From positions 1-22,879 of IMG/VR virus record IMGVR_UViG_3300044950_000448: a stretch of 22,879 nt of DNA. The stretch is one strand, 5' to 3'. Below, one piece after another: positions 1,811 through 16,831 of the stretch. The notes under the pieces were generated by a model. It did no database searches and was not told the DNA's origin. It saw only the letters and a program-made list of their open reading frames with translations. The stretch comes from a virus. Position 1 is the first letter of the stretch, and every line of letters begins with the position of its first letter. The position numbers were made by a program, and so were the translations under genes.

Positions 1811-1871
1811 GCACAACATGAATAATATAAGAATAACTAAGACGCGGTTAGATACGACGGGAGCAACTTAA
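1809..1871 (+). CDS. 20-codon leader ORF overlapping the next start (TAATG)
   Basis: ATG at 1809 is preceded by AAAAGGAAA (1796-1804), a good ribosome site. The frame runs 20 codons to TAA at 1869-1871, whose last A is the first base of the fibre ATG at 1871. The peptide is basic in the middle and begins M-H-N-M-N-N; no family is recognised. The geometry suggests a translational-coupling leader, but the fibre gene also has its own GGGAG site, so it may be incidental. If the promoter at 1782-1810 is real, its transcript would lack this start codon, so only readthrough transcripts would carry it. Confidence 0.35.
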   Translation: MHNMNNIRITKTRLDTTGAT

Positions 1872-4800
1872 TGACCTCCTGGCGTTACATCGGTCAGAGC
1901 CTGTCCACTACTGTGGCGTCGGGTAATTTGACGCTGGATTATCCGACCAAAGATGACGTACTGGCTAATTCCCTGAGCTCAGTCACTTACTCATCCACTG
2001 AAGACCTCTTTGTCGCTGTAGGCATGTCAGGCGCTATCATAACCTCCCCTGATGGTACGACGTGGACACCTCGCGCAAGCGGTACGACTGACCAGTTGAA
2101 CTCAGTCGCTTACTCACCTACAGAAGACCTTTTCGTCGCTGTAGGTGACATGGGTACAGTCATTACTTCACCCGATGGTACGACATGGACAACTCGAACA
2201 AGTGGTACGACTAGCGTACTGTACACGGTTACCTACTCATCCACTCTCTTCGTCGCTGTAGGCGATGTAGGCACCATCATAACTTCCCCTGACGGTACAA
2301 CATGGACAACACAAGCAAGTGGTACGACCGACATACTGTTAGGAGTCACTTACTCATCCACCGCCGACCTCTTCGTCGCTGTAGGCTCATCGAGCGTAGT
2401 TATCACCTCACCAGATGGTACAACGTGGACAGAGCGAACCAGCGGTACGCGTGACTACCTAAGCTCAGTCATTTATTCATCAACAGAAGACCTATTCGTT
2501 GCCGTAGGTGACTCTGGCATTGTTATCACCTCACCAGATGGTACAACGTGGACAGAGCGAACCAGCGGTACGGGTAACTTCCTGAGCTCAGTCACTTATT
2601 CACCAGCAGATAATTTATTTGTAATCGTAGGTGACCCTTGGACTGTTATCACCTCACCAGATGGTACAACGTGGACGACGCGAACGAGCGGTACGATTAA
2701 ATACCTGAGCTCAGTCACCTACTCATCTGCTCTATTCGTCGCGGTAGGTGAAGAAGGCACTATCATCACATCGACTGACGGTATGGAGTGGCTAACTCGT
2801 AACGTTTACGCTACTAACGAATTGTACGGAGTCACCTATTCAACCATCGACAACCTCTTCGTCGCTGTAGGCAACGTAGGCACTGTTATTACTTCACCAG
2901 ATGGTATGACATGGACGACGCGAACAAGCAGTACGGCCGAATGGTTGAACGGCGTTATTCACTCTCCCATTAACAGTTTATTCGTCGCTATAGGTGACTC
3001 AGGAAGCCTTATAACCTCACCTGACGGTACGACATGGACAACCCGTACCACCGGTATTAACGGCTCGCTATGGGGAATTACTAATTCGACCGATGACGAG
3101 CTACTCGTAGCCGTAGGTGACGAAGGCACTATCATCACATCGACTGACGGGGCTAACTGGACAACGTGCACCAGCGGTACGACTACCCAGTTGACCGCAG
3201 TCACCTATTCAACCACCGACAACCTCTTCGTAGCGGTAGGATTGTCGGGCACTGTAATAACTTCCCCTGATGGTACGACATGGACAGGGCGAACCAGTGG
3301 TACGGCTTCTACATTGCTGTCAGTCACCTACTCATCCACGGAAGACCTTTTCGTGGCGGTAGGCGCGTCAGGTACTGTGATAACCTCCTTTGATGGTGTT
3401 ACATGGACAACGCGAACCAGTGGTACGGGCAATGAGTTATGGTGGGTCACTTACTCACCCACCGAAGACCTATTCGTCGCTGTAGGCGTGTCAGGTACTG
3501 TGATAACCTCCCCTGATGGTGTTACATGGATGATTCGAACGATTTATACGGATATCACTTTATACGCGGTCACTTATTCATCAACGGATGGCCGCTTCGT
3601 AGCTGTAGGTGACTTCGGTAACAACAGCATCACATCGACTGACGGTGCTAACTGGATGTGGTCGGGTGTAAAAACCGGTGATCTCTTCGTTGCCATGATT
3701 GCCTACCGTGGCAACGCCGCGTTCTCGTTACCTTCTGGTTGGAATCTGGTCGCCACACAGCAGAGTTCAGGTAACACATCAACGACAACATCAACAGCCA
3801 TCGGTTCCGGCTTGATGGCGTACTGTGTCTATGATGCCGCTTCACCGCCGGGATACACGTTCACCCGTACAGGTGGTGATGTGGCTTACGGTCGCTTGGC
3901 TATGTACCGAGAGGCGTATGGCTATGCAATACCCGTTACTTACGACACCGGCAGTGCGAACACGCTAGCCGCGAACAGCACCACCGTAACCACTGCGTCG
4001 ATCACGACTGCCGAGGATGGCGAGCTTCTCATCTCGTTCTTCTTCGGTGCGGATAACGCATTAGCATCACTCTTCACCGCAGCCACCAGCCCCAACAATC
4101 AGTCCGCTACGATGGGTGGGGCGCATATCCCCAACCACAACTTCTGGGGCGAGGTTGTAGACAGCCCCACAATGACAGGCGCAGACACCCAAAACGCTTT
4201 CGCGCACGCGGTCAAGGTCACGGCGGGTGCTACTGGTACGTTGCAAACCACAGCACAAGTCTCATCGCGGCACGGCTTGATTGTCGGTGCGTTCAAACGA
4301 TCTGATTTACAGACACTGTTTATCGTCACATATCCTTCAGGACTTAACACACCGTCGAGTACTCAGATAGTCGCGGGTAAAGATGTTACCGATTCAATGG
4401 CAATATGGTCAGATAATGCAACGTGGACCGGCCCTGGACAATATCTGGAAGTTGACGGTTTATCCCCAGATACTGAATACGATTCGGCTGCGGTAATATT
4501 CGACGGCACTAGGTACTCCAATATAGTGGAAATCTCCGGTGTATGGACTACACTAAGCGGTGTAAATTTACGTTTCGGTAGACCTTCATCAGACACATCA
4601 TCTGGCGAATGGCTACCTTCGACGGGATTGGTTCTTTATGCCATGCTGGATGAAGAAACGGCAGATGATAATGATTACATCTATACAGATTCAGCCAGTA
4701 CTTGTGAATTGAATTTAACTGATATCACAGATCCTTCGACGTCAACCAATCAGATATTGACCATACGAGCTAAATCTCAATACGGTGACACGTTGACGGT

Positions 4801-4951
4801 TACGTTGAAACAAGGCTTGACGTCTATAGCCACCAGGACATTCAATACTTTAGCCACCGAGTGGACAGATTATCAAATCACATTAACCGGCGCCGAATGT
4901 GATACAATCACAGATTATAGTGCGCTTAGCGTACAATTAGAAGCGTTGTAA
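1871..4951 (+). CDS. Large tail fibre/adhesin: Asp-box propeller repeats, sandwich domains, FN3-like and C-terminal domain
   Basis: A 1026-residue protein. The ATG at 1871 follows GGGAG with 7-nt spacing. After a short N-terminus, residues 33-595 hold 13 full blades (39-41 residues, S-P-D-G-x-x-W core) with half units at each end, which would make 14 blades if the ends pair. Residues about 597-690 and 690-809 are two beta-sandwich-like domains, paralogous to those encoded separately at 995-1256 and 1266-1796. Residues about 811-895 look like a fibronectin type III fold (V-D-G-L-S-P-D-T-E-Y-D-S-A). Residues about 898-1026 resemble a C-terminal beta domain common in phage virion proteins (L-Y-A-M-L-D-E-E-T-A-D-D-x-D-Y-I). 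This is probably the main receptor-binding or polymer-binding fibre; no enzymatic residues can be claimed. It is not obviously a depolymerase, since no right-handed beta-helix signature is seen. Confidence 0.88.
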   Translation: MTSWRYIGQSLSTTVASGNLTLDYPTKDDVLANSLSSVTYSSTEDLFVAVGMSGAIITSPDGTTWTPRASGTTDQLNSVAYSPTEDLFVAVGDMGTVITSPDGTTWTTRTSGTTSVLYTVTYSSTLFVAVGDVGTIITSPDGTTWTTQASGTTDILLGVTYSSTADLFVAVGSSSVVITSPDGTTWTERTSGTRDYLSSVIYSSTEDLFVAVGDSGIVITSPDGTTWTERTSGTGNFLSSVTYSPADNLFVIVGDPWTVITSPDGTTWTTRTSGTIKYLSSVTYSSALFVAVGEEGTIITSTDGMEWLTRNVYATNELYGVTYSTIDNLFVAVGNVGTVITSPDGMTWTTRTSSTAEWLNGVIHSPINSLFVAIGDSGSLITSPDGTTWTTRTTGINGSLWGITNSTDDELLVAVGDEGTIITSTDGANWTTCTSGTTTQLTAVTYSTTDNLFVAVGLSGTVITSPDGTTWTGRTSGTASTLLSVTYSSTEDLFVAVGASGTVITSFDGVTWTTRTSGTGNELWWVTYSPTEDLFVAVGVSGTVITSPDGVTWMIRTIYTDITLYAVTYSSTDGRFVAVGDFGNNSITSTDGANWMWSGVKTGDLFVAMIAYRGNAAFSLPSGWNLVATQQSSGNTSTTTSTAIGSGLMAYCVYDAASPPGYTFTRTGGDVAYGRLAMYREAYGYAIPVTYDTGSANTLAANSTTVTTASITTAEDGELLISFFFGADNALASLFTAATSPNNQSATMGGAHIPNHNFWGEVVDSPTMTGADTQNAFAHAVKVTAGATGTLQTTAQVSSRHGLIVGAFKRSDLQTLFIVTYPSGLNTPSSTQIVAGKDVTDSMAIWSDNATWTGPGQYLEVDGLSPDTEYDSAAVIFDGTRYSNIVEISGVWTTLSGVNLRFGRPSSDTSSGEWLPSTGLVLYAMLDEETADDNDYIYTDSASTCELNLTDITDPSTSTNQILTIRAKSQYGDTLTVTLKQGLTSIATRTFNTLATEWTDYQITLTGAECDTITDYSALSVQLEAL
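1967..3658 (+). repeat. Tandem coding repeats of 117-123 bp in the second fibre gene
   Basis: Full units begin at 2030 and continue to a half unit at 3617. Eleven are 123 bp; two (the second and sixth) are 117 bp, lacking two codons in the loop before L-F-V-A-V-G. The best-conserved neighbours share about 51 identical bases at 2399-2449 and 2522-2572. The half units at the two ends are complementary parts of one blade, as in propellers that close by joining N- and C-terminal strands. Confidence 0.88.
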
Positions 4952-5006: not shown

Positions 5007-6194
5007 ATGCTGTTACTAAATTCTACTAGCGACGTCGTTCGTGTTGTCACCGGTTCCGCCGCAAACTCAATTGATGTTCACACTTCATGGGTTGATCTAA
5101 ACGGGACTACGGTTACTCCGGGAAGACAGAACACGGTGATCACCACGGCCACCACGACGACCATCGTCCCGTCACCGGGGGCAGGAACCGCACGAAACCT
5201 CAAGGCGCTGTACGTCACGAACGATTCAGTCGGAACAAGTTGCATAGTAGCTGTTGAGATATTTGATGGCATAAATCAGGTGGAGTTGATGCAGTTCGTC
5301 CTGCTCCCCGGCGAAAACATGACGTTTAATGAGGAAGGCGGTTGGCGGCATCGTGACCAGAACGGCGCGGACTATCCCCCGTCCGGTCTTGGTTCTTATT
5401 CTGGTAGTGCCATCCCCTTCATGAAGTCCGGAACAGCGGCTGACACCGCAGGATACTGGTACTGCACTTCCAAGGACGCAGGCTTTCCGGGGGCGTGGGC
5501 AGTGGGTACTCCAGGGCTTAATGGTCGTGTGACAGACGGGACAACCGCTACTGATAACGGATGCATCCCGGTTAAAAACCCGTCGGTAGGATCAAACTAC
5601 CTAACCGAAATACAAATGGCTGCTAGCGTCAACCACTCACATTTGTTCTTCGATGTGTTGTGGGTGAACTCGGGTATAGTAGTTACCACTACCACAGCGC
5701 AAGCCATTACAACACCGACGTTACCTGCACGAGATGCTAACGGCACCACGAACGGGGAAGGCTGCATGATTGGCTTGCTGACAACTACGGCCAACACTAA
5801 CGCCGCAGCCATTGCCAACGCGACGGTTAGTTATACGAACAGCGACGGCACGGCAGGGCGCACAGCTACGCTTTCAGCTATCGCAGGTTCTCAGATTCCC
5901 GTGTCTCCGGTTATCGGTACGATTGTCTGGTTCAACCTCGCCGCTGGTGATAAAGGGGTGCGCTCTATTCAGTCAATCACGCTCGGGACATCCTTGGTTG
6001 CCGGCGCGGTTTCATTGCTGATCGCCCGAGACATCGCAACCATCGGAACCACCATCGCAAACGTGTCGGCCCAGAAGATTATTGGTAATCCGGGTATCAG
6101 GCTGTACAACGGGACTTGTATGCTGCACTGTATCTTGGCCAGTGCAACGACAGCCACGTTCTTCAGTGGCGAATTCACCATCATGGAGAAATAA
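5007..6194 (+). CDS. Phage virion structural protein (tail/fibre-associated)
   Basis: A 395-residue protein. The ATG at 5007 follows AAGGA with 8-nt spacing. The N-terminal about 110 residues (M-L-L-L-N-S-T-S-D-V ... L-L-P-G-E-N-M-T-F-N-E-E-G-G-W-R) form a beta-rich domain I recognise as recurrent at the start of phage structural proteins. The rest is rich in Thr, Ala and Gly with many short beta-type segments and ends in a compact hydrophobic strand region. No signal peptide, transmembrane helix or catalytic motif is evident. It sits between the fibre genes and a small tail protein, so a fibre, collar or decoration role is likely. The precise function is unknown. Confidence 0.75.
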   Translation: MLLLNSTSDVVRVVTGSAANSIDVHTSWVDLNGTTVTPGRQNTVITTATTTTIVPSPGAGTARNLKALYVTNDSVGTSCIVAVEIFDGINQVELMQFVLLPGENMTFNEEGGWRHRDQNGADYPPSGLGSYSGSAIPFMKSGTAADTAGYWYCTSKDAGFPGAWAVGTPGLNGRVTDGTTATDNGCIPVKNPSVGSNYLTEIQMAASVNHSHLFFDVLWVNSGIVVTTTTAQAITTPTLPARDANGTTNGEGCMIGLLTTTANTNAAAIANATVSYTNSDGTAGRTATLSAIAGSQIPVSPVIGTIVWFNLAAGDKGVRSIQSITLGTSLVAGAVSLLIARDIATIGTTIANVSAQKIIGNPGIRLYNGTCMLHCILASATTATFFSGEFTIMEK

Positions 6195-6195
6195 C

Positions 6196-6651
6196 ATGAT
6201 CATCGTTCTAGTGAAGGATGGTGTGGTTGAGCACTGCATAGGTGCTGACGAAGACCAGATGCAGAATGTCGCTGAAATGTATCCAGACCATCTAATTCTT
6301 CCCCAGATGGGGGAGGAAAACGTGGGATGGCATTACGACGGAGAATTGTTTACCCCGCCAGAGGGTTATGTGCCAGAAGGCTCCGTAAGGATTACGCAGT
6401 TGGCGTTTCTAAACAGGTTCACCGATACGGAAGCGATCACCATTGACTTAGCGTCTATGGGGGCAACGGTAGAAGCTGCGAGTCTACGACGTGAGTTGAA
6501 GAGAACTGATGCTGCCAAATACATAGATTTAAACGATCCTGGATTGATAGCAGGTCTCAATAAGCTTGAGCTATACGGTTTATTGGGAGAGGGTAGAGCC
6601 ACAGAGATTTTGACGGCACAAGTTACCGCCAAAGAATTGTACACGGATTAA
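6196..6651 (+). CDS. Small phage protein, possible tail fibre accessory
   Basis: A 151-residue protein. ATG 6196 is chosen over upstream in-frame alternatives because GGAGA (6185-6189) is well placed and the upstream extension would overlap the previous gene by over 100 bases. The N-terminal part (V-V-E-H-C-I-G-A-D-E ... P-Q-M-G-E-E-N-V-G-W-H-Y-D-G-E-L-F-T-P-P) resembles small proteins encoded next to phage fibre genes, where a short domain ends in a W-x-Y-D-G-x-x-F-x-P-P motif. The C-terminal half is helical and charged, with a segment like a minor-tail-protein helical domain (F-L-N-R-F-T-D-x-E-A). It could be a fibre-assembly helper or part of the fibre base. No catalytic residues are seen. 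Confidence 0.65.
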   Translation: MIIVLVKDGVVEHCIGADEDQMQNVAEMYPDHLILPQMGEENVGWHYDGELFTPPEGYVPEGSVRITQLAFLNRFTDTEAITIDLASMGATVEAASLRRELKRTDAAKYIDLNDPGLIAGLNKLELYGLLGEGRATEILTAQVTAKELYTD

Positions 6652-6654
6652 ATC

Positions 6655-9600
6655 ATGTCTACTCTAGGGCTATGGGCCGTAGAGCTCAAACCAGAAGCAT
6701 GGTTCAGTACGGAGATAGAAGCAATAGGCTGGTTTGACGGCGATTTACTGACAGGACAGATACCTACATACGTCACTGTTACGTCTTCACAAACTTCAGC
6801 AATATGTTCAACTTGTACCATTCAACACACCAATGGCGTACAAGCAAATAATTCCCAAATCATAGAGAATTGCTCCGCAACGACTGTTCGACAAACACAT
6901 AACACACAAGTCAATGCATCTCAATCATCCGCAATCTCATCATCAACGTCGATATCGCAAACACACCTAATCAGTTCGTCGAATTCACAATCGCTTTTGA
7001 GTTATTCCGACGCATCGATACAACAGACACGTAAGCTAACAGTTAATATATCGCAATTTAGTACGCAATGTTCGTTATGTGCCGTTTCACAGACACATAA
7101 TCTGACCGTACAGTCTTCTCAAAACACTTTAAATGCTACAAACATAGCGACATACCGTACAAGAGATGTTCAAGTCTCTTGGGTACAATTTGATACGTTG
7201 GCTGTAGGTGAAGACGTACAGGTTCTGACGACCAATTCAGTTGTGTCGAATGTCGCGAATGGCGTCTCTATCAACGTCACGAAGCTAGTCTCCGGAACTA
7301 GTTCGCAATCGCTGAATTCGTGTTCAACAGCAGCTATTCAACAGACACGTAAGATATCAGCTATAGGATCTCAAGTCCTTGATTCGTGTTCAACAGCAGC
7401 TATTCAACAGACACGTAAGATATCAGCTTTAAATTCACAGACAGTTGTACAAGTAAACTCTCTACAAACATATTACATAAATTTTGTCAATGCGTTAGGT
7501 TCACAAGTATCAAGCGCATTGAATGCGTCGAATATAAGACAAACACATAGTCTGATTCCGGAGAAGTCAGGCGCGGAAATATACAGTAATGCCATAGCAA
7601 TATATTATAGACGTCTTGTGTCGCCGGTGTCTTCCTCGGTTGTGGATATCGTCAGTACATCACAGATCATTCAGACACACAAAATATCTTTAGCCAATTC
7701 ACAAAATACAACTAATACAAACAATTCGGCGATACAACAAACACATAAGGTCTCGGTCAATAATTCTCAAAACTTAAACAGTTGCTCGACCGTAGCGATA
7801 CGTGGTGTACATCTTCTTTCTTGTGCTTCTAGTAACGTAAATGTTGATTGTAACTCTATTCAGACTGGCCTGACACATAGGTTAAGTGTCGCTGTAACTA
7901 ACGTAACGAATAGTGTAAATCCTGTTATCATTTACTACAAGCTTATTGTTGAAGGTTCTTCCAGCAACTTGTACACGGCGACTAACGATATATCGATCAG
8001 ACCAACACATCGTATTTCGTTAAACAATTCCAATTCATTTGTGTCGGCGAACGCCATAACCACAGATGACATAGCAATGTTAGCCGTTTCAAACTCGACC
8101 GTTTCGAGTTCCATCGGCAATGTTCCGTTAAAACAAACACATAAGCTATCCTTAGCGACAGTCACAAATACCATCAACGTCAGTACAGTCAGTATCGAGC
8201 AAACCCATCAAGTTAATGCGATGAGTTGTGTGGTATATGGACAAGTGTCTTCGTCCAGCATAAATCACACCAAGAAACCGTCATTGGCGTCGTCCGACAT
8301 AGACATAACGTGCTTCGACTGTACAATCAGACAGACGCATCTACTCTCGGCAAACAACTTAAGTATATTGTCTAATTTAAGTCCGATACAGACATACTAC
8401 AGTCGTAATGTTTCGGCTTCAAATGTCGTGGTCGATGTTGTAAGCAACCCAATCAATGTATTGCAAACACGTAGTCTGATTCCGGCGAATTCAAGCACGG
8501 AAATAGACAGTAATGCCATAACAATATATTATAAGCGTTTGGTGTTGCCTGTTGACAGTTCTGTATATTCGCTTACCGGTGACTGTTCGATAAATAGTAC
8601 ACAATTGTTGTCAGTTAGCGTGGGTATGCAACCTGCGTCTTGTTCTGGCATTTCAATAAGACAGACGCATAGGGTCAACGCCGCAAGTTCAGCATCACAG
8701 ACCGCGATTATCGATATAGATCTTGAATCAACTTCTTCGATTGCGGCTTCGAACACGAACCAAGGCATTTCGACGAATAACATCGAGATACTGCCCACCA
8801 ATCGTTGTCAAGTTTCGAATAGTGAAGTTAGTATCGGTGTTAATACCGTACAGATAAAAGCCACACATAAGATTAGTGTCAATGATAGCCAATCTTATGT
8901 ATTGTCTAATAATGTCACAACGGGTGCAGAACATCTGGTCGCGGCTGCTGTATCCGAAATCGACATAAGTTCAAGTCAGGTTGCTTTAAGACAAACCAGC
9001 GCACTATCGGCAACAGATAGCACAGCGTATAACCAGAGTTCGGCTGTTTCGACTTTAAGTACGCATCTGTTAAGTTGTGTCAGCAGTCAGTCTGGTTCGA
9101 CTGCTTCGACATCAGCTCTGAAACAGACGCATCTGCTACAATCAGCTAATAGTACGATCACATCGTCATCAAATAACGCAACCATCGGCAGCGAGGCTTT
9201 ACTTAATATAGCGAGTTCTCGTTCGACGAGTGCGACTGACGGTGTATATATCAGACAGACAAACTATGTTAACGCGATTGAATCTTTTGTAGCTTCTACA
9301 TTATCTACGGTCAGTACAGGTGCAGAGCATTTAATTAATCCCGCGAATAGTGTCGTACTTGGTTCACTGAATAATATACAGATCAGACAAACACATCGTG
9401 TTTCGACGGCAAATAGTGTATTCAACAGCAATGTTAACATATTAGAGATCGATCAAGAACAATTAATAAGAATTTTACCGGAATCGTCCGTTGTTGTATC
9501 GAATTTGAATTCATCGAATATCGTATCGACACATCTGATCACAGTATCGAATAGTAGAATCGATTCGAGTGCGGACAATGTGATTCTTGATGGAATAGAT

Positions 9601-10005
9601 CTTTATGAGATCCTTGCGACTCCGATTCATGTACCGGTCACGACGAATAATGTACAAGTACTTCAGACGCACTTATTGGGCTGTTCGGATGTAATATCGA
9701 ATATAACCACGCTTTCATTAGATATAAATCTGACACATATTCTTTATTGTGTAAACAGTCAGATCGCTTCTCAAACATCACGTGTGAGTTGTGTAGATGC
9801 GTCTAGGGTAGGCATAAGTCGTGTTTATTTAAAATCGTTGTTAAATCCAGATGTTTCTTTACAATCCAGAAATGGTAGTGAACTAAACGACACATCCCTT
9901 GTATCAAATAGATACGTTGATGACTCAAGTTTCAGCGCTTCTGCCTTACTAACGTCGAGAGTAAATAAACGTATTTCTCTCATCTCAAAGGTAAATAGAT
10001 TATGA
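6655..10005 (+). CDS. Giant 22-residue-repeat protein, putative beta-solenoid fibre
   Basis: A 1116-residue protein with no recognised enzymatic domain. The ATG at 6655 is three bases after the previous stop and lacks a clear SD, suggesting reinitiation. Residues 1-40 (W-A-V-E-L-K-P-E-A-W-F-S ... G-W-F-D-G-D-L) are a short N-terminal segment I have seen on other phage structural proteins. From about residue 41 to 1040 it is a tandem array of about 45 units of 22 residues: Q-T-H/R-x-L/I-S, three variable residues, S-Q, then a Ser/Asn/Thr-rich stretch and a closing I-x. Some units replace Q-T-H with Q-T-Y-Y or I-Y-Y-K/R. Ser, Asn, Thr, Gln, Val and Ile dominate, acidic residues are rare, and basic residues sit mainly after the H/R. 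Regular 22-residue spacing fits a beta-solenoid or trimeric fibre shaft. The last about 75 residues are non-repetitive. Function inferred: extended fibre or whisker. Confidence 0.8.
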   Translation: MSTLGLWAVELKPEAWFSTEIEAIGWFDGDLLTGQIPTYVTVTSSQTSAICSTCTIQHTNGVQANNSQIIENCSATTVRQTHNTQVNASQSSAISSSTSISQTHLISSSNSQSLLSYSDASIQQTRKLTVNISQFSTQCSLCAVSQTHNLTVQSSQNTLNATNIATYRTRDVQVSWVQFDTLAVGEDVQVLTTNSVVSNVANGVSINVTKLVSGTSSQSLNSCSTAAIQQTRKISAIGSQVLDSCSTAAIQQTRKISALNSQTVVQVNSLQTYYINFVNALGSQVSSALNASNIRQTHSLIPEKSGAEIYSNAIAIYYRRLVSPVSSSVVDIVSTSQIIQTHKISLANSQNTTNTNNSAIQQTHKVSVNNSQNLNSCSTVAIRGVHLLSCASSNVNVDCNSIQTGLTHRLSVAVTNVTNSVNPVIIYYKLIVEGSSSNLYTATNDISIRPTHRISLNNSNSFVSANAITTDDIAMLAVSNSTVSSSIGNVPLKQTHKLSLATVTNTINVSTVSIEQTHQVNAMSCVVYGQVSSSSINHTKKPSLASSDIDITCFDCTIRQTHLLSANNLSILSNLSPIQTYYSRNVSASNVVVDVVSNPINVLQTRSLIPANSSTEIDSNAITIYYKRLVLPVDSSVYSLTGDCSINSTQLLSVSVGMQPASCSGISIRQTHRVNAASSASQTAIIDIDLESTSSIAASNTNQGISTNNIEILPTNRCQVSNSEVSIGVNTVQIKATHKISVNDSQSYVLSNNVTTGAEHLVAAAVSEIDISSSQVALRQTSALSATDSTAYNQSSAVSTLSTHLLSCVSSQSGSTASTSALKQTHLLQSANSTITSSSNNATIGSEALLNIASSRSTSATDGVYIRQTNYVNAIESFVASTLSTVSTGAEHLINPANSVVLGSLNNIQIRQTHRVSTANSVFNSNVNILEIDQEQLIRILPESSVVVSNLNSSNIVSTHLITVSNSRIDSSADNVILDGIDLYEILATPIHVPVTTNNVQVLQTHLLGCSDVISNITTLSLDINLTHILYCVNSQIASQTSRVSCVDASRVGISRVYLKSLLNPDVSLQSRNGSELNDTSLVSNRYVDDSSFSASALLTSRVNKRISLISKVNRL
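6770..9790 (+). repeat. 66-bp coding repeat array (22-residue units)
   Basis: About 45 degenerate in-frame units of 66 bp. One pair remains nearly unchanged: 47 identical bases at 7316-7362 and 7382-7428. A longer block at about 7550-7630 (S-L-I-P-x-x-S ... Y-Y-R-R-L-V) recurs at about 8470-8550, showing duplication of several units at once. Confidence 0.85.
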
Positions 10006-10283
10006 CAAAGCTCTATGTAGGTGACGTGGGATCCGAAATCATCCTGGAAACAGGTATGGATCTCACAGGAGCGCTTTCACTTAATATCATCGGCAGACGA
10101 CCCGATTTTTCGGAGTTCGTCTGGACAGCTACCCAGCATGAATTGACGCACGTGAAACATGTGACGGCATTGGATGAGCTGAATATGGATGGTATCTGGA
10201 CATTACAGTCTGATGTGGAAATGCTTAATGGTAATTGGTTGGGTGAGTCAGTCTCACTTGAAATTTTCAGAAAGTTTAATTAA
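10002..10283 (+). CDS. Small phage structural protein, baseplate/fibre-associated type
   Basis: A 93-residue protein starting T-K-L-Y-V-G-D-V-G-S-E-I-I-L-E-T-G, then a beta-rich body ending L-G-E-S-V-S-L-E-I-F. The pattern (a linear polypeptide constraint such as D-G-I-W-T-L-Q-S-D-V-E) is like the BppU N-terminal type domain of phage baseplates, and I have seen similar small proteins beside fibre genes; that link is from memory. The ATG at 10002 overlaps the previous stop (ATGA), with AAAGG about 10 bases upstream. The next gene follows after 9 bases. No enzymatic residues. Confidence 0.6.
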   Translation: MTKLYVGDVGSEIILETGMDLTGALSLNIIGRRPDFSEFVWTATQHELTHVKHVTALDELNMDGIWTLQSDVEMLNGNWLGESVSLEIFRKFN

Positions 10284-10500: not shown

Positions 10501-12039
10501 ATGGCGATCCAAGCAGTTCAGAAAACTCTGGCGGATCCCATTGCCGCTTATACTGAGGCGGAAAGAGGGTGGAAGATTGGAAGAGCTGCTTGTAAAGGTT
10601 CGTCCGATATAAAGGCACTCGACAGGTTTGTTTCGATTAGTGACAACCTGTTGATTCCTTTTTCACCGTCTATGACGCAACCACAATACGATTTTTATAA
10701 GTCTGAAGCTGAGTGGCCAGGTATTGTATCACAGTACGCCAAGATGCTGGTCGGTGGGTTATTGCGTAAGAAACCCGTATTGACACTGCCTGATGATGTC
10801 CCGGAAGACGCCAACGATTGGATCATGAACCAATTCGGTCAAGACGAAATAACGTTGGCCGCTTTTCTTGACGATGCGTTGTGGGAAGAGATGCAAACAG
10901 GTCGTGCATGGATTCAAGTCGATTTTCCCAAGGTATCCAAGCCGGATGAAATGACAAGAGAAGAACTTCTTGAATTACGCCCCTATGCTATTCTCCACAA
11001 AGCTGAAACGATAATCAACTGGACCATCACCACTGGCGAGGATGGTGCTCAGATGTTGAGTCGTCTTATCATCAGAGCCGTGGAAGAATCTTTCGACGAT
11101 GGTCAGTATGAATTTCATCCCAAGTTGACAAATATCATCTGGGTACATGAGATTCGCGAAGGTAACTATCGAATCAGGAAATATCGTGACAAATCGGACG
11201 GTACGGTACACAGTGCCGTAAGTTATGATTTGGAAGAGACGAATGAAAACATTCTATTCAACGGTGAACGCTTAAAATATATTCCAATATGGCCTTTGAA
11301 CGGTAGCGTGAAGATTGTCGGACAGATGTTGATGCCGATCATTGACAAAGAGATCGCTCTCTACAATAAAACCAGTCGCAGAAATCATCTACTGTATGGT
11401 GCCGCTACGTACACGCCTGTTATATTCTCCGACATGCCCGATGACGATTTTGATGCACTCGTCGAAGGTGGTTTGGGTACTTGGCTACGACTTAGAAGTA
11501 ACGACAGAGCTGAGATTCTCGACACACCCACGGCCGCATTGAAAGATATGGAGACGGCCATAGCCGCACATATCGAAGAAATGGCCAAGATGGGTATCAG
11601 AATGTTGTCTCCGGAATCCGCACAATCCGGTGTGGCTCTTGAGATTCGTAACGCCGCACAGACATCACAATTGGGAACATTAAATCAAAAAGTAAGTAAT
11701 CAGCTACGTTCGATTATTTGCTTTATGATCAATTGGCGTTACGGTACAGATTACAAGGAAACGGATCTTGAGTTTAATTTATCTGAAGATTTCAACCCGG
11801 TTCCGTTGGGTGCGGATTGGTTACGACTTGCCACTGAATGGTATCAACAAGGTTTCTTACCAAGAAGTATCTGGTTGTCATTGTTGAAACAAAACGATAT
11901 GATCACACCGGATTACGATGACGAAGAGGGTCGTAAAGAAATTAACGAAGATGAATTGATTGTATTGCAAAAAGACCAGAATATGGACTATGCAAATCAA
12001 TCATTCGAAGCGCAAAAGACATCGGAAAAAGAAGTTTAA
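10501..12039 (+). CDS. Portal protein, DUF4055 family
   Basis: A 512-residue protein that forms the dodecameric ring at one capsid vertex, through which DNA is packaged and leaves. The family is recognised by the N-terminal segment with W-P-G-I-V-S-Q-Y-A-K-M-L-V-G-G-L-L-R-K (about residues 72-90), I-P-I-W-P-L-N-G (261-268), and the C-terminal helix and loop M-A-K-M-G-I-R-M-L-S-P-E ... G-V-A-L-E-I-R-N-A (361-385) typical of DUF4055. The length is normal for the family. The ATG is one base after the preceding stop with no convincing SD, so it probably depends on reinitiation. Residues 475-512 are an acidic, polar tail. It is followed by a structured GC-rich gap before the MuF gene. Confidence 0.92.
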   Translation: MAIQAVQKTLADPIAAYTEAERGWKIGRAACKGSSDIKALDRFVSISDNLLIPFSPSMTQPQYDFYKSEAEWPGIVSQYAKMLVGGLLRKKPVLTLPDDVPEDANDWIMNQFGQDEITLAAFLDDALWEEMQTGRAWIQVDFPKVSKPDEMTREELLELRPYAILHKAETIINWTITTGEDGAQMLSRLIIRAVEESFDDGQYEFHPKLTNIIWVHEIREGNYRIRKYRDKSDGTVHSAVSYDLEETNENILFNGERLKYIPIWPLNGSVKIVGQMLMPIIDKEIALYNKTSRRNHLLYGAATYTPVIFSDMPDDDFDALVEGGLGTWLRLRSNDRAEILDTPTAALKDMETAIAAHIEEMAKMGIRMLSPESAQSGVALEIRNAAQTSQLGTLNQKVSNQLRSIICFMINWRYGTDYKETDLEFNLSEDFNPVPLGADWLRLATEWYQQGFLPRSIWLSLLKQNDMITPDYDDEEGRKEINEDELIVLQKDQNMDYANQSFEAQKTSEKEV

Positions 12040-12174: not shown

Positions 12175-13560
12175 ATGATCCCGAAAAACGCTAACACAGA
12201 GATTTACGATAAGACACTTGATCGAGCTGCGATGATACGTTTATACGAAAGGCGTGTAAACGGTAAGATCGAGCTTGTATTGAACGGCCACGTTGTACGG
12301 ACAGATAAACTTATTCGAGATGCAATATTGTCTCAAAAAGGCTTCGAAGCATTTCGAGAAGCTGTTGATCAAGAATTATTTAAGACGTTCAAAGAGGTAT
12401 ACGCAACTTCGAAACGTTCCCTACTGGATCTTGCAACAGATCAGGTCTCATTCGCGTATCAGACAATTGAAAACTCTATGGGACATATTTGGCGTACAGA
12501 ACGTCCTAAGATGCGAATTGCTGAAGATCTGGTATTAAAACGACCTATATATTCTGATAAGACACTGGAAGCTGGTTGGCATTCGATTTCATTAGGTGAA
12601 AAGAAACGCCTGGAAAATGTGATTCGAAAAGGGATGGCTGAAGGTAAGAATGTGAATCAAATAGCTTTAGATGTTCGTAAAGGCAACATTCACAACATAA
12701 CCATGAATCAATCTCGTGGATTGGTTGTGACGGCGATCACAAGTGTGAAATCACAAGCTGATCAGGCAGTGTATATGGCTAATGAAAAAGCCATTCAAGG
12801 TTGGCAATATGTGGCGGTACTCGACTCACGCACCACACCGCTGTGTGCACATAGAGACGGTACAATATATCCTGTGGAAGATACGAGCCATCTTCCACCT
12901 GCTCATTTCCATTGTCGTAGTACGACCGTTCCTGTGTTTAAATCATGGGGCGATATGGGATCGTTGGAAGGTGTTTCACAAGTACGTAAGCGTAATCTTG
13001 CCGGACTGTCGAAAGAACAGATAGCTTTTTATGACGGTCAGACACCGCTTAAAGAATCGTATAATGATTGGCTCCTTCGCCAACCGCGTGACGTACAGTT
13101 GCGTCATTTAGGTGATTACAAGAAAGTTGAATTGTTCAATTCCCACGAACTGTCTGTGGACAAATTTACTAATGCCGAAGGTAATTCAATCGGTATTAAC
13201 GAATTGAGAGCGATGACCGGTGTCGCACCTATGGACACAAAACGTTTTGCTAGCGCGAAGCAAAGACTTGATTCGATGCGCTTGTGGGCGACCACACCAG
13301 ATGATTTCATCAATGATCCGAAATTACAGAAGACGTTGAAAGATTACTATCTGCTACAGGCAGGCGAGCTTGACGGAACATTATCTCTGACGAATTATCG
13401 TGGTAATCTTTTACATACTAAAGCTGCGACCAAGCGGCGTGTATTACAAAATTCACCTACGGAAGAACAGCTTAAATATAATCCGATAACAGGAAGGTAT
13501 GATGACACACGTATGTTAACCCTCTCCAGAAACATTGGTCAGTCGTATACACTTAATTGA
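12175..13560 (+). CDS. MuF-like minor head protein (SPP1 gp7/Mu gpF family)
   Basis: A 461-residue protein; ATG 12175 follows AGGAG with 7-nt spacing. Residues about 140-256 form the MuF domain: an all-helical lead-in, then V-L-D-S-R-T-T-P-L-C224 ... D228-G ... P-P-A-H244-F-H-C247-R, the classic Cys/His signature of the family. Downstream, Y-D-G-Q-T-P-L-K-E-S-Y-N-D-W-L-L-R-Q-P (286-304) matches the extension I recall in MuF proteins of DUF4055-portal phages. MuF proteins bind the portal or capsid interior, take part in head assembly and DNA exit, and in many prophages carry C-terminal toxin domains. None is recognised here; instead the gene overlaps an RNA polymerase gene by 26 bases in the +1 frame. 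Residues 310-461 are a helical extension of unknown function. Confidence 0.88.
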   Translation: MIPKNANTEIYDKTLDRAAMIRLYERRVNGKIELVLNGHVVRTDKLIRDAILSQKGFEAFREAVDQELFKTFKEVYATSKRSLLDLATDQVSFAYQTIENSMGHIWRTERPKMRIAEDLVLKRPIYSDKTLEAGWHSISLGEKKRLENVIRKGMAEGKNVNQIALDVRKGNIHNITMNQSRGLVVTAITSVKSQADQAVYMANEKAIQGWQYVAVLDSRTTPLCAHRDGTIYPVEDTSHLPPAHFHCRSTTVPVFKSWGDMGSLEGVSQVRKRNLAGLSKEQIAFYDGQTPLKESYNDWLLRQPRDVQLRHLGDYKKVELFNSHELSVDKFTNAEGNSIGINELRAMTGVAPMDTKRFASAKQRLDSMRLWATTPDDFINDPKLQKTLKDYYLLQAGELDGTLSLTNYRGNLLHTKAATKRRVLQNSPTEEQLKYNPITGRYDDTRMLTLSRNIGQSYTLN

Positions 13561-16500
13561 AAATAGTACGTCGCTGCTAGACGATGATAAAATGTTCTTG
13601 AAGACATTTATCGATGATTTAGAAGATTCCATGAGTGTCAATGAACGTGCCGTTGTTGCTGATAATCTCCGTATTATGTTCACAAGATACCGTGTAAATA
13701 AAGAATTATGGACGAATTTCAAAGCTGTGTCGCAATCACAGCTGAAATTTGATTTGATGAATATATCAGATTACATAGAAACACAGGTACGTAAGGACTC
13801 TGACCTTCTCAAGAAACTTCTCCAAGATAATTATATAGATCCTGTGCTCGGGCCTGTGCAGTTACAAAGTCTTCATGATAGTTTCATTGATAATATCTTT
13901 AAACGTAATAAATGGGAAGACACCACGGCACCGAAGATAGCTCGAGAACTTAGAGGAATGATCGACACAAAGATTCCTCCCAAAATTCGTGTCAGAATGT
14001 CGGACAGAGATCTTCAAGGGTTCTATCTTCGTTTTGCACATCGCTTGAGTCTTGCTGATTCACCCGACAGAGACCAATTGGCCATTGCATTGGGACGTGA
14101 CTTACATAATGCCGCAAATCTCAATGGTTCAAGAAACGAGTGGTATAAAGTTGGTGTTAAACTTCTAGATGATGCGGATGATAAAGGCTTTTATAAGCTT
14201 GAGACGTTCGGTGTACAGAAACGTCGAATGAAATCGAGAAACGGCGGTCGTTTGTTTGGACCGTACTATGAAACATTTAGTGTTAATCTTCGCATTGTGG
14301 ACCCACGTATTCAAGAGTATGCCAAGTTGACACGTAGCGTAGATATAGGTCTTCGCGTGTCCGTGACCGATCCGAAGAATCAGTTGATCGTCAGAGAAGG
14401 TTACAAGACCTATTTTGTGAAACGCGGTTTGGGATACTCAGACACAAGAATTCCGATCACATCCACAGGAAGCTTCAGCGACTTCCCTGTAGAATTCATC
14501 GACAAGAATATGGCGGATGCTCTAAATTGGGCATCGGAAGCTAAATACAAAGTTGATCCAGAATTCCATAACTTCATCAAGAAGCTCTTGTATTTTGAAG
14601 ATGATAAAGGTAAGGCAACATACTTCAATGAATTGAATACGTATAAGCATTACATCGCTGAACGTGGTGATTCTTACGAACGTTTCAAGGCCATGGAATG
14701 GTTAACAGACAATGACAAAGCTTTCAGCAATCATCCTTTCCTTGACCATCGTGCGCGTATTTATGAACGTGGTTTGATCGGCCCACAATCCGGTGAGACG
14801 TTCAGACCGTTCCTCAACACAGAAGATGCTAAGATACTTGGTGTAAAAGGTTTTAAGAATCTTCAAGATCAGATTGGTGCTTTCATCGGTGGTTTGGATG
14901 ATTATTTTGAAGGCAATTACAATTCACTCACGTTCACAGGTAGGCAGAAGATAGCTGAGAAGTGGCGTCCCGAGATGGTTAAGCTTGGCAATCACATGCT
15001 TAGAGCTAAGCCCGGAGATATTCGTGCTGTACTTGAGTCTGAGATGTTCAAGAGAATCGATGGAGAAGACCTGGGTAAGTTTATGCGATTTGCTATGGAA
15101 ACTGCAAAACTTGATGGATACTTATCAGGTAATTACACGAGAGCTAGTCTATCGTCTTTAGATAAGTACAAGACAGCTTTGGCACTAGAACAAGATGCCT
15201 CATCATCCGGTGCTCAGATCATTGCATTGACGACGCGTAACAAACAACTCGCTGAATTGTCAAATGTCGTGCCCACATCTCAGAAACAACGTCTCTACGA
15301 TGAAATTGCCGGCGCGACTTATGATGATCCTCGTTTCAAGGAACTAAACAAGAAGTTTGGTTTAACTGAGAAAGACCTAAGAAAAGCATCTAAGGCTCAA
15401 AACATGGTCACGTTCTACGGAGCTGGTGTACGTACAGGTATTCTGAATGTCGAAGGAAAATTGTCAAAGATCCTTGGAAAAGAAGGCAATACATTAGTCG
15501 TGAAAGCTGCGGATCGTGACACGGTGCTAAATGAAATATCTGCGAGAATGGCACGTTATGAGAAATTCGATCAAGAAACGTATTTGGAATTGAAACAACT
15601 TCGAACAGACGTTAAAGACATATTCAACAAAGGCACACAACCAGGGGATGAGATTCTTGAGCAGTTATATTTCTTAGACAGCAAGACAAAAGATCTTGTA
15701 ACAAAACTCTCAGCCAACTACGATCGAGTTGTCACACCCGACGATTTCGCACAAATCGCTGCGATTATGAGTGACCATCTTCGGGAACAAGTACCTATAC
15801 TGAAGGATTTCACGAGCTTCTTTGGCAGGCTGGCAGAGGACTATCTCACACATGCTAAACCATCCAACAGTAATTTCGACTGGAAGTCTATCGCTAAGAC
15901 ACGTATCTTGCCACACAAAAAGGGTGGTTACAAATTGCCAGACCGTGTCAGTGAAGTATTGGGATTAAAAGCTGGTGAACCTGTATCTGAAAAGATACTT
16001 AAGAGATTTGGTTTTTGGAAACCCAACGGCACACTGGATGAATTGATCAACGGTGTTGCTGATCCGAAAACTCGTAGAATTGGTGCTAAGTATATGAAGG
16101 TTGAGGTCGTGTTGCCGATTCCTAATTGGAAAAAGAAGGCATTGGCGACGGAAGTCGAAGTGATTCCAGCGATTGAGGTATTCGAAGCGAATAAACTTCC
16201 TAAGTCCTGGACGAACGTACCTTGGATTAATTTTGACGGTAAAACAATAGAACAGAATTTCACACAAAGTTTTGAAGAGCGATTACGCTACAAAGACAAA
16301 AACGGTAATTGGATCACGAATATAATCCAAGTACCACAAAAGACTAATGCCACCTGGTGGGATCAAATAATAAATCGTGACGGGAAAATCAACGACATAG
16401 CGGATGCAATGAAAGCACGTACTGCTTATGCGGTTAACGGAAATCACAGCAATGACGCGACCATAGTGAAACGTTTTCATTTATGGGGGCGTAATAATAA

Positions 16501-16831
16501 TGTGCAAACAGGTACGATTCACGATGCTTTCTTCGCTAACGCGGCGGATATGTTATCCGGTCGTAAAGCATTACGAGAGATCTATGCAGATACACTTAAA
16601 CGAAATATCATCAGAGAAACATTACTGGAGATGCGCAAACGCGGTCTTCCTGAAGAACTTTACGAGAAGTACTTAAATGAGGCGATCGAAAAAGGTCTCA
16701 TTCCGATTTCGAGAAAATCAATGATAAATGGTAAATACATGACCGATAATGATATCTTGAACGAGCGTGATATTTTAAGGGACATCCCGGAAGATTTCTC
16801 GGATGATTTTGGTTGGTATGGAGTTGGTTAA
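13535..16831 (+). CDS. Single-subunit DNA-dependent RNA polymerase, T7/N4 type (putative virion RNA polymerase)
   Basis: A protein of up to 1098 residues. Family motifs, in order: H-P-F-L-D404-H-R-A-R408-I-Y410 followed by P-Q-S-G-x-x-x-R, matching T7 D421-W-R-G-R425-V-Y and its P-Q-G segment; motif A D554-A-S-S-S-G-A-Q (T7 D537); motif B R616-x3-K620-x7-Y628-G (T7 R627, K631, Y639); N970-H-S-x-D974 then motif C I-H996-D997-A-F (T7 H811-D812). The C-terminal L-R-D-I-P-E-D-F resembles the T7 C-terminal L-R-D-I-L-E-S-D-F. All metal-binding and nucleotide-binding residues are present, so activity is expected. Length and spacing recall the 1106-residue N4 mini-vRNAP. It lies between MuF and scaffold, so virion packaging is inferred. 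Start uncertain: TTG 13535, inside the MuF gene, or ATG 13592; neither has a good SD. Confidence 0.92.
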   Translation: MVSRIHLIENSTSLLDDDKMFLKTFIDDLEDSMSVNERAVVADNLRIMFTRYRVNKELWTNFKAVSQSQLKFDLMNISDYIETQVRKDSDLLKKLLQDNYIDPVLGPVQLQSLHDSFIDNIFKRNKWEDTTAPKIARELRGMIDTKIPPKIRVRMSDRDLQGFYLRFAHRLSLADSPDRDQLAIALGRDLHNAANLNGSRNEWYKVGVKLLDDADDKGFYKLETFGVQKRRMKSRNGGRLFGPYYETFSVNLRIVDPRIQEYAKLTRSVDIGLRVSVTDPKNQLIVREGYKTYFVKRGLGYSDTRIPITSTGSFSDFPVEFIDKNMADALNWASEAKYKVDPEFHNFIKKLLYFEDDKGKATYFNELNTYKHYIAERGDSYERFKAMEWLTDNDKAFSNHPFLDHRARIYERGLIGPQSGETFRPFLNTEDAKILGVKGFKNLQDQIGAFIGGLDDYFEGNYNSLTFTGRQKIAEKWRPEMVKLGNHMLRAKPGDIRAVLESEMFKRIDGEDLGKFMRFAMETAKLDGYLSGNYTRASLSSLDKYKTALALEQDASSSGAQIIALTTRNKQLAELSNVVPTSQKQRLYDEIAGATYDDPRFKELNKKFGLTEKDLRKASKAQNMVTFYGAGVRTGILNVEGKLSKILGKEGNTLVVKAADRDTVLNEISARMARYEKFDQETYLELKQLRTDVKDIFNKGTQPGDEILEQLYFLDSKTKDLVTKLSANYDRVVTPDDFAQIAAIMSDHLREQVPILKDFTSFFGRLAEDYLTHAKPSNSNFDWKSIAKTRILPHKKGGYKLPDRVSEVLGLKAGEPVSEKILKRFGFWKPNGTLDELINGVADPKTRRIGAKYMKVEVVLPIPNWKKKALATEVEVIPAIEVFEANKLPKSWTNVPWINFDGKTIEQNFTQSFEERLRYKDKNGNWITNIIQVPQKTNATWWDQIINRDGKINDIADAMKARTAYAVNGNHSNDATIVKRFHLWGRNNNVQTGTIHDAFFANAADMLSGRKALREIYADTLKRNIIRETLLEMRKRGLPEELYEKYLNEAIEKGLIPISRKSMINGKYMTDNDILNERDILRDIPEDFSDDFGWYGVG

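Follow-up and report, generated by a model that had tools for sequence, protein, structure and literature searches.

The gene at positions 6655-10005 (plus strand) of a 22,879-nucleotide stretch of viral DNA (IMG/VR record IMGVR_UViG_3300044950_000448; hereafter the window) encodes P0001, a capped tandem-repeat protein of 1116 residues. It is a member of a widespread capped family that is apparently undescribed in the libraries and papers searched and whose members probably attach host-binding proteins to the virus particle. For P0001 itself we favour, with moderate confidence, a role as the fibril (a 'rope' or stalk) that links an adhesin to the virion in a side or neck fibre of a siphovirus; this role is likely to be one version of a type of fibre attachment already known. 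In the proposed arrangement, the 22-residue units of P0001 would form one long extended beta-structured rod, probably oligomeric; the N-terminal cap would engage the payload of the fibre, most likely a 395-residue protein encoded just upstream, and the C-terminal tail would dock on the virion via a 93-residue protein encoded immediately downstream. We infer the presence of P0001 in the virion, its outward end, its oligomeric state, the beta-rod and the role of the gene cassette in adsorption.

The P0001 gene and its repeat array

The reading frame runs from an ATG at 6655 to a stop codon at 10003-10005, exactly as given in an earlier note made from the DNA letters alone, and the approximately 45 units of 22 residues claimed there are borne out by the repeat statistics: about 1000 of the 1116 residues are tandemly repeated in near-perfect register. 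The array (positions 6769-9774, plus strand; residues ∼39-1040) has hydrophobic unit positions 3, 6, 8, 14, 16 and 21 and, when its units are written in register, only a few shifts of 2-4 residues. Against 200 shuffles, the top self-similarity lags were 44 (z 17.3), 22 (15.4), 88 (13.0) and 66 (11.8), with the next lag at z 4.4. Every lag that is a multiple of 22, out to 27 units, scored between +0.49 and +0.90, compared with a baseline of -0.50 (sd 0.16, maximum 0.07) at the other lags; lag 44 exceeded lag 22. These statistics rule out chance or artefact as the source of the periodicity. The array has been enlarged via duplication: two segments of 98 nt, 924 nt (14 units) apart, are 83% identical, and the DNA of two neighbouring units is 89% identical.

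Columns within the units show a strong pattern. The hydrophobic fraction per unit column reaches 0.95 at position 14, 0.82 at 6, 0.79 at 8 and 0.76 at 16, and falls to 5-8% at positions 4, 11 and 12; Ser, Thr, Asn and Gln together account for 43.5%. The recurrent cysteine positions noticed earlier are real, nine of the 20 cysteines lying at unit position 3, four at 6 and four at 16. Acidic residues are indeed few (5.5%; the head proteins encoded in the window have 10.5-16%), though basic residues are just as scarce (55 K+R, 61 D+E). The 'strict' Q-T-H/R anchor described in the earlier note was an overstatement: the exact QT[HR] triplet occurs 17 times, and of 38 units in register, 18 have Q in column 10, 28 have T in column 11 and 27 have H or R in column 12, with TYY, GAEH or the like in its place in many units. 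The anchor is a preference and no rule.

Beyond the array, a C-terminal tail without units (9775-10002, plus strand) ends in SRVNKRISLISKVNRL and would be the virion-side end by analogy with the RxLxV tails found beside Gp77 adaptors (see below). Direct searches with P0001 found no relatives in IMG/VR or in phage records, both searches being hampered by low complexity; no Pfam or NCBIfam family scored above threshold, and PHROGs gave no match. A DNA pattern for IxQTHx..NSQ gave 12 matches, all at the level of chance.

A conserved cap heads a family of repeat proteins

The array is preceded by an N-terminal cap (6664-6753, plus strand; residues 4-33) of three ∼11-residue units, LGLWAVELKPEA / WFSTEIEAIG / WFDGDLL, in which motif search and alignment show conserved F/W-F-D-x-E-L units. 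The same motif heads 51 non-redundant repeat proteins. As a DNA pattern, WFxx(E/D)(L)xxxGWFD was found in 24 viral contigs, with an array behind the cap in nearly all of them; these arrays have periods near 22 and differ in unit type (Ala/Gly-rich, Ser-rich, Asn/Thr/Phe-rich or His-rich). Significant tandem periodicity (z >= 5) was detected in 50 of the 51 non-redundant capped proteins and in two of 120 control ORFs taken from the same kind of loci. The periods were 22 (17 proteins), 20 (13), 21 (7), 23 (5), 24 (1) or roughly double (7), P0001 itself giving 22/44 (z 15.5), and the arrays range from ∼100 to 1000 residues. Since nearly all capped proteins bear repeats and their unit sequences are diverse, what defines the family is the cap together with the length of the unit, whatever the unit sequence: one gene slot carries different repeat sequences in different phages.

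The capped proteins that were scanned against PHROGs, including P0001, gave zero matches. We attribute the lack of a name for these proteins in Pfam, PHROGs and NCBIfam to units that change faster than profiles follow; cap motif, unit length and gene order still identify them. Many hypothetical phage proteins are thereby tied to a testable role, that of attaching host-binding proteins, and the combination of a fixed unit length with a free unit sequence is a natural experiment on the features that a repeat rod requires. One ORF of 131 residues (L081:6966-7358) has the full cap and no repeat array; it is perhaps a degenerate or minimal form.

Resemblance to His-type 22-residue arrays

The earlier note had pointed to His-rich 22-residue arrays in other phage proteins. 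Such arrays exist, in L014, in Microcystis phage Mae-JY22 and in L045, and they share a register with P0001, but the profile statistics that would link them are weak. The array in L014, the single true array among three matches to a His-repeat pattern, holds 34 recognised His-type units, for example HNHTTENVDLVQSNILATNETT, and the units of Mae-JY22 and L045 are similar. When aligned with MAFFT, without being forced, P0001, L106, L014, Mae-JY22 and L045 fell into one register that is gap-free over most aligned columns. The 22-residue unit and the grammar V/I-x-L/I-x-Q-x-H/N-x-L/I/V-x-V/A-x-D/N-A/S are common to P0001 and the His arrays; the difference is that the His arrays have T-H-x-H where P0001 has S-Q, the S-Q standing opposite T-H in the alignment. 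The units of L106 (QNH...STQ) look intermediate between the two, and L045 provides a direct link, combining His units with a P0001-type cap and an upstream protein of 67% identity.

Hidden Markov models of 44-residue double units gave no cross-detection between P0001 and the His arrays, and those of L014 and L106 scored P0001 no higher than shuffles. In a column-profile test, the fractions were 0.061 for P0001-L106, 0.096 for P0001-His and 0.0005 for L106-His, with mutually consistent phases. From these comparisons of sequence, common ancestry of the P0001 units and the His-type units is plausible; that of the cap across the capped proteins is much firmer. Ladders of HxH motifs can bind metal, as in the tip of the T4 fibre. 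P0001 lacks HxH repeats, so that a ladder of this kind was rejected, and the His/Arg and Gln ladder claimed earlier is only partial.

The gene cassette around P0001

P0001 lies in a cassette. It is preceded by the gene for the 395-residue protein (5007-6194, plus strand), a candidate adhesin or payload of the fibre, and directly by that for a small phrog_25252-like protein (6196-6651, plus strand; E 3e-15), and it is followed by the gene for the 93-residue protein (10002-10283, plus strand), which overlaps the P0001 stop (ATGA) and occupies the slot held by Gp77 or Ig-like adaptors in relatives. The same order, from the 395-residue protein through the phrog_25252-like protein to the capped repeat protein, recurs in many of 59 loci.

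The 395-residue protein of the window is 65-67% identical to the proteins upstream of the capped genes of L043 and L045. A scan with an alignment of these three sequences found it in 60 viral loci (L059-L118), at 60-80% identity across most of the contigs, and in two metagenome-assembled genomes (of a Gallionellaceae bacterium and a beta-proteobacterium); Pfam, PHROG and NCBIfam gave zero matches. By motif search, a capped gene lies just downstream in 43 of 59 loci, as it does, with a variant cap, in L106/L107, and phrog_25252-like homologues stand between the two genes in about two dozen. Both upstream genes are frequent, not universal, companions of the capped family. Since the cap travels with the 395-residue protein, it probably holds the payload.

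The cassette is found beside head or connector genes of varied phages. The portal of the window had no match in ten repeat-bearing records searched, that of L043 included; since the order of the 395-residue and capped genes is conserved in records without this portal, the cassette looks like a mobile unit. Its position next to head genes would fit neck-attached fibres.

For the 93-residue protein, no Pfam match was obtained, hhalign against the Gp77 set gave a probability of 0.15%, and no homology to the adaptor-like L053 and L086 proteins or to the L031 neighbour was detectable; no relative was found in IMG/VR. Its putative adaptor role therefore follows from place and size only.

Comparison with known fibre systems

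The clearest parallels come from capped or similar repeat genes next to a recognisable adaptor. In L106/L107 the capped repeat gene is followed by one that matches Pfam PF23148, 'Podophage GP4 fiber-tail adaptor protein gp77' (E 4e-16); in L041 a protein with the cap, 20-residue repeats and an RxLxV tail is encoded ahead of Gp77 (E 4e-24), and in Mae-JY22 Gp77 lies a few genes downstream of the His array. Proteins of the Gp77 type match PDB entry 8jou_D. In Burkholderia phages BcepIL02 and BcepMigl and Pseudomonas phage Itty13, a repeat-like protein of 246-285 residues is encoded directly or one gene before Gp77 and ends PAPRxRxxRVxHExRxLIVPR; its periodicity is clear in BcepIL02 (period 20, z 7.9) and lower in BcepMigl and Itty13 (z 3.1). 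The BcepIL02 and BcepMigl records label both the repeat-like protein and Gp77 'virion-associated'. An RxLxV-style C-terminus also occurs on the L041 and Mae-JY22 proteins. Since the C-terminal tails vary with phage type and match the adaptor type where that is recognisable, the tail probably docks on the virion. Nevertheless, the tail of P0001 has no clear RxLxV motif, which counts against the fibril reading, as do the negative comparisons of the 93-residue protein with Gp77, the failure of P0001 to match a PDB chain, the low-confidence structure models and the finding that the portal relatives of the window carry no such repeats.

Many other capped proteins (L032, L035, L042, L043, L051, L068, L071, L073 and L087) end in an acidic-hydrophobic peptide, for example EEDIELLLMAAYS or DDELLFILDFALD; the Gp77-associated ones have RxLxV tails instead, and the classes of tail seem to depend on phage type. 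The 1257-residue protein of L106 (7619-11389) has a non-repeat domain at its N-terminus; midway, its 22-residue array is interrupted by a glycine-rich insert, much as if an adhesin domain were built into the rope.

The fibre-I linker of phage GP4 was reportedly termed an elongated rope protein. The GP4 fibril (PDB entry 8JOU, chain g) is described as linking an adhesin to the collar of the tail (PMC13243795), and a dimeric fibril in the virion would be one mark of the GP4 type. P0001 resembles this system in that a repeat protein gene stands at an Ig-like adaptor gene, with repeats of ∼20-22 residues in the GP4-like relatives, and in that L041 and L106 combine the P0001-type cap with Gp77. It differs in its length (1116 residues and ∼45 units compared with 246-285 residues in the relatives), in a downstream neighbour that is no detectable Gp77 and agrees in position and size only, and in its virus, a siphovirus, whereas GP4 is a podophage. 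In a phmmer search against the PDB, P0001 gave no hits up to E 10, a weak test as the BcepMigl homologue also misses the GP4 chain; the BcepMigl and BcepIL02 repeat proteins matched no PDB chain by sequence. Thus, identity of P0001 with 8JOU_g is not established.

Two further systems are similar by description. Phage LSH1 carries an independent three-gene module of adhesin gp34, fibril gp35, which matches GP4 chain 8JOU_g, and Ig-fold protein gp36; the module is optional among related phages, and its working model is the same as that proposed here for the P0001 cassette (PMC13243795). The likeness lies in the order adhesin, fibril and small Ig-fold gene. The neck fibre of Anabaena phage A-1(L) (gp80-gp81-gp82) is present as five fibres on a 15-fold ring (PMC10966104). 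It too is a long chain-like fibre attached at the neck, but it is built from many gp81 trimers, whereas P0001 is one long repeat protein.

Fold of the array and alternative roles

Monomer structure prediction (AlphaFold2) placed three strands in each 22 residues, at low pLDDT (49.6 for residues 1-286 and 43.7 for residues 331-550), and Foldseek found no fold match with E <= 0.001 for either model. The solenoid proposed in the earlier note is therefore suggested by low-confidence three-strand models only, and a beta-helix-like rod is plausible as a modelled shape of the array, an oligomeric rope being conceivable too. The authors of the LSH1 study described poor-quality beta-helix predictions beside the adhesin domain as perhaps hallucinations (PMC13243795), a warning that also applies to the P0001 models.

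Twenty-two residues are a usual rung length of right-handed beta-helices. If P0001 were such a helix, parallel and tailspike-like, it could itself be the receptor-binding fibre, with repeated faces that bind host glycans; the three strands per 22 residues in both models would agree with this, as would the presence of pectate lyases and tailspikes among the best, insignificant fold matches of the second model (331-550), and an array that changes fast while the cap stays is what a host-range part would show. We nevertheless consider this reading rather unlikely. The array is of low complexity, with no non-repeat insertions of a catalytic or pocket-like kind; almost any unit sequence is accepted within the family, as would befit a spacer more than a binder; a separate and strongly conserved candidate payload (the 395-residue protein) accompanies P0001; and Pfam, PHROGs, NCBIfam and the PDB hold no match to P0001. 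It is very unlikely that the array is a low-complexity spacer without a defined fold, for the most part disordered or resembling amyloid, as its Ser/Thr/Asn/Gln content and the low pLDDT in both runs might indicate: in a disordered chain, a strict 22-residue register over ∼1000 residues with alternating hydrophobic columns would be unexpected, and shallow alignments alone could yield low pLDDT.

Where such a fibre sits is a related question. Capped genes often adjoin portal, scaffold or major capsid genes (in the window and in L032, L035 and L043), as would befit a head fibre or capsid-surface whisker instead of a neck or tail fibre; but the recognisable adaptor in relatives, Gp77, is of the tail or neck type, and phage structural genes are often shuffled, so that position alone is weak. 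We hold a head fibre to be improbable. The long fibre-like structural protein that the earlier note proposed is well supported by gene context, and its guess of a whisker or host-binding fibre came close; the cassette points more precisely to the tether of such a fibre at the side or neck, and a neighbouring gene probably supplies the adhesin. A variant in which the array is a string for beads, one or two units per adhesin copy or oligomer, seems doubtful; if true, the number of units would set the number of receptor-binding proteins per fibre, and phages would tune reach and valency by gaining or losing units.

The virus and other genes of the window

On the 3' side of P0001, the window holds genes for portal, MuF, RNA-polymerase-like, scaffold, major capsid, connector, tail terminator, major tail and tape-measure proteins, a head and tail gene set that indicates a siphovirus; the 22.9-kb record is probably a fragment. 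The portal protein (10501-12039, plus strand; phrog_145, E 9e-58), the first head gene past the cassette, has its closest counterparts among phage records in Pelagibacter phage Kolga, EBPR siphovirus 1 and DSS3_VP1 (40-47% identity), and in a few IMG/VR contigs. No comparable 22-residue repeat protein was found in the loci fetched from these portal relatives, which places the P0001 gene outside the core of the lineage.

The MuF head protein (PF04233) and the single-subunit RNA-polymerase-like protein (PF00940) form one ORF of ∼1460-1544 residues in L003, L006 and DSS3_VP1. In the window (12175-16831) they lie in two overlapping frames, 12175-13560 and 13520-16831, so that the split is either genuine or a frameshift introduced by sequencing; a polymerase joined in one chain to an internal head protein would count as a virion RNA polymerase.

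Upstream of the cassette, a 1026-residue protein (1871-4951, plus strand) consists of 41-residue propeller-like repeats and a C-terminal non-repeat domain (period 41, z 23.2; weak DUF6242). The ORF at 3-1256 (z 33.7) carries the same kind of 41-residue 'SPDGTTWTTRTSGT...DLFVAVG..GTVIT' repeats, with a similar C-terminal domain behind both arrays, and the ORF at 1266-1796 resembles part of that at 1871-4951. The two repeat ORFs are possibly alternative or further fibre payloads.
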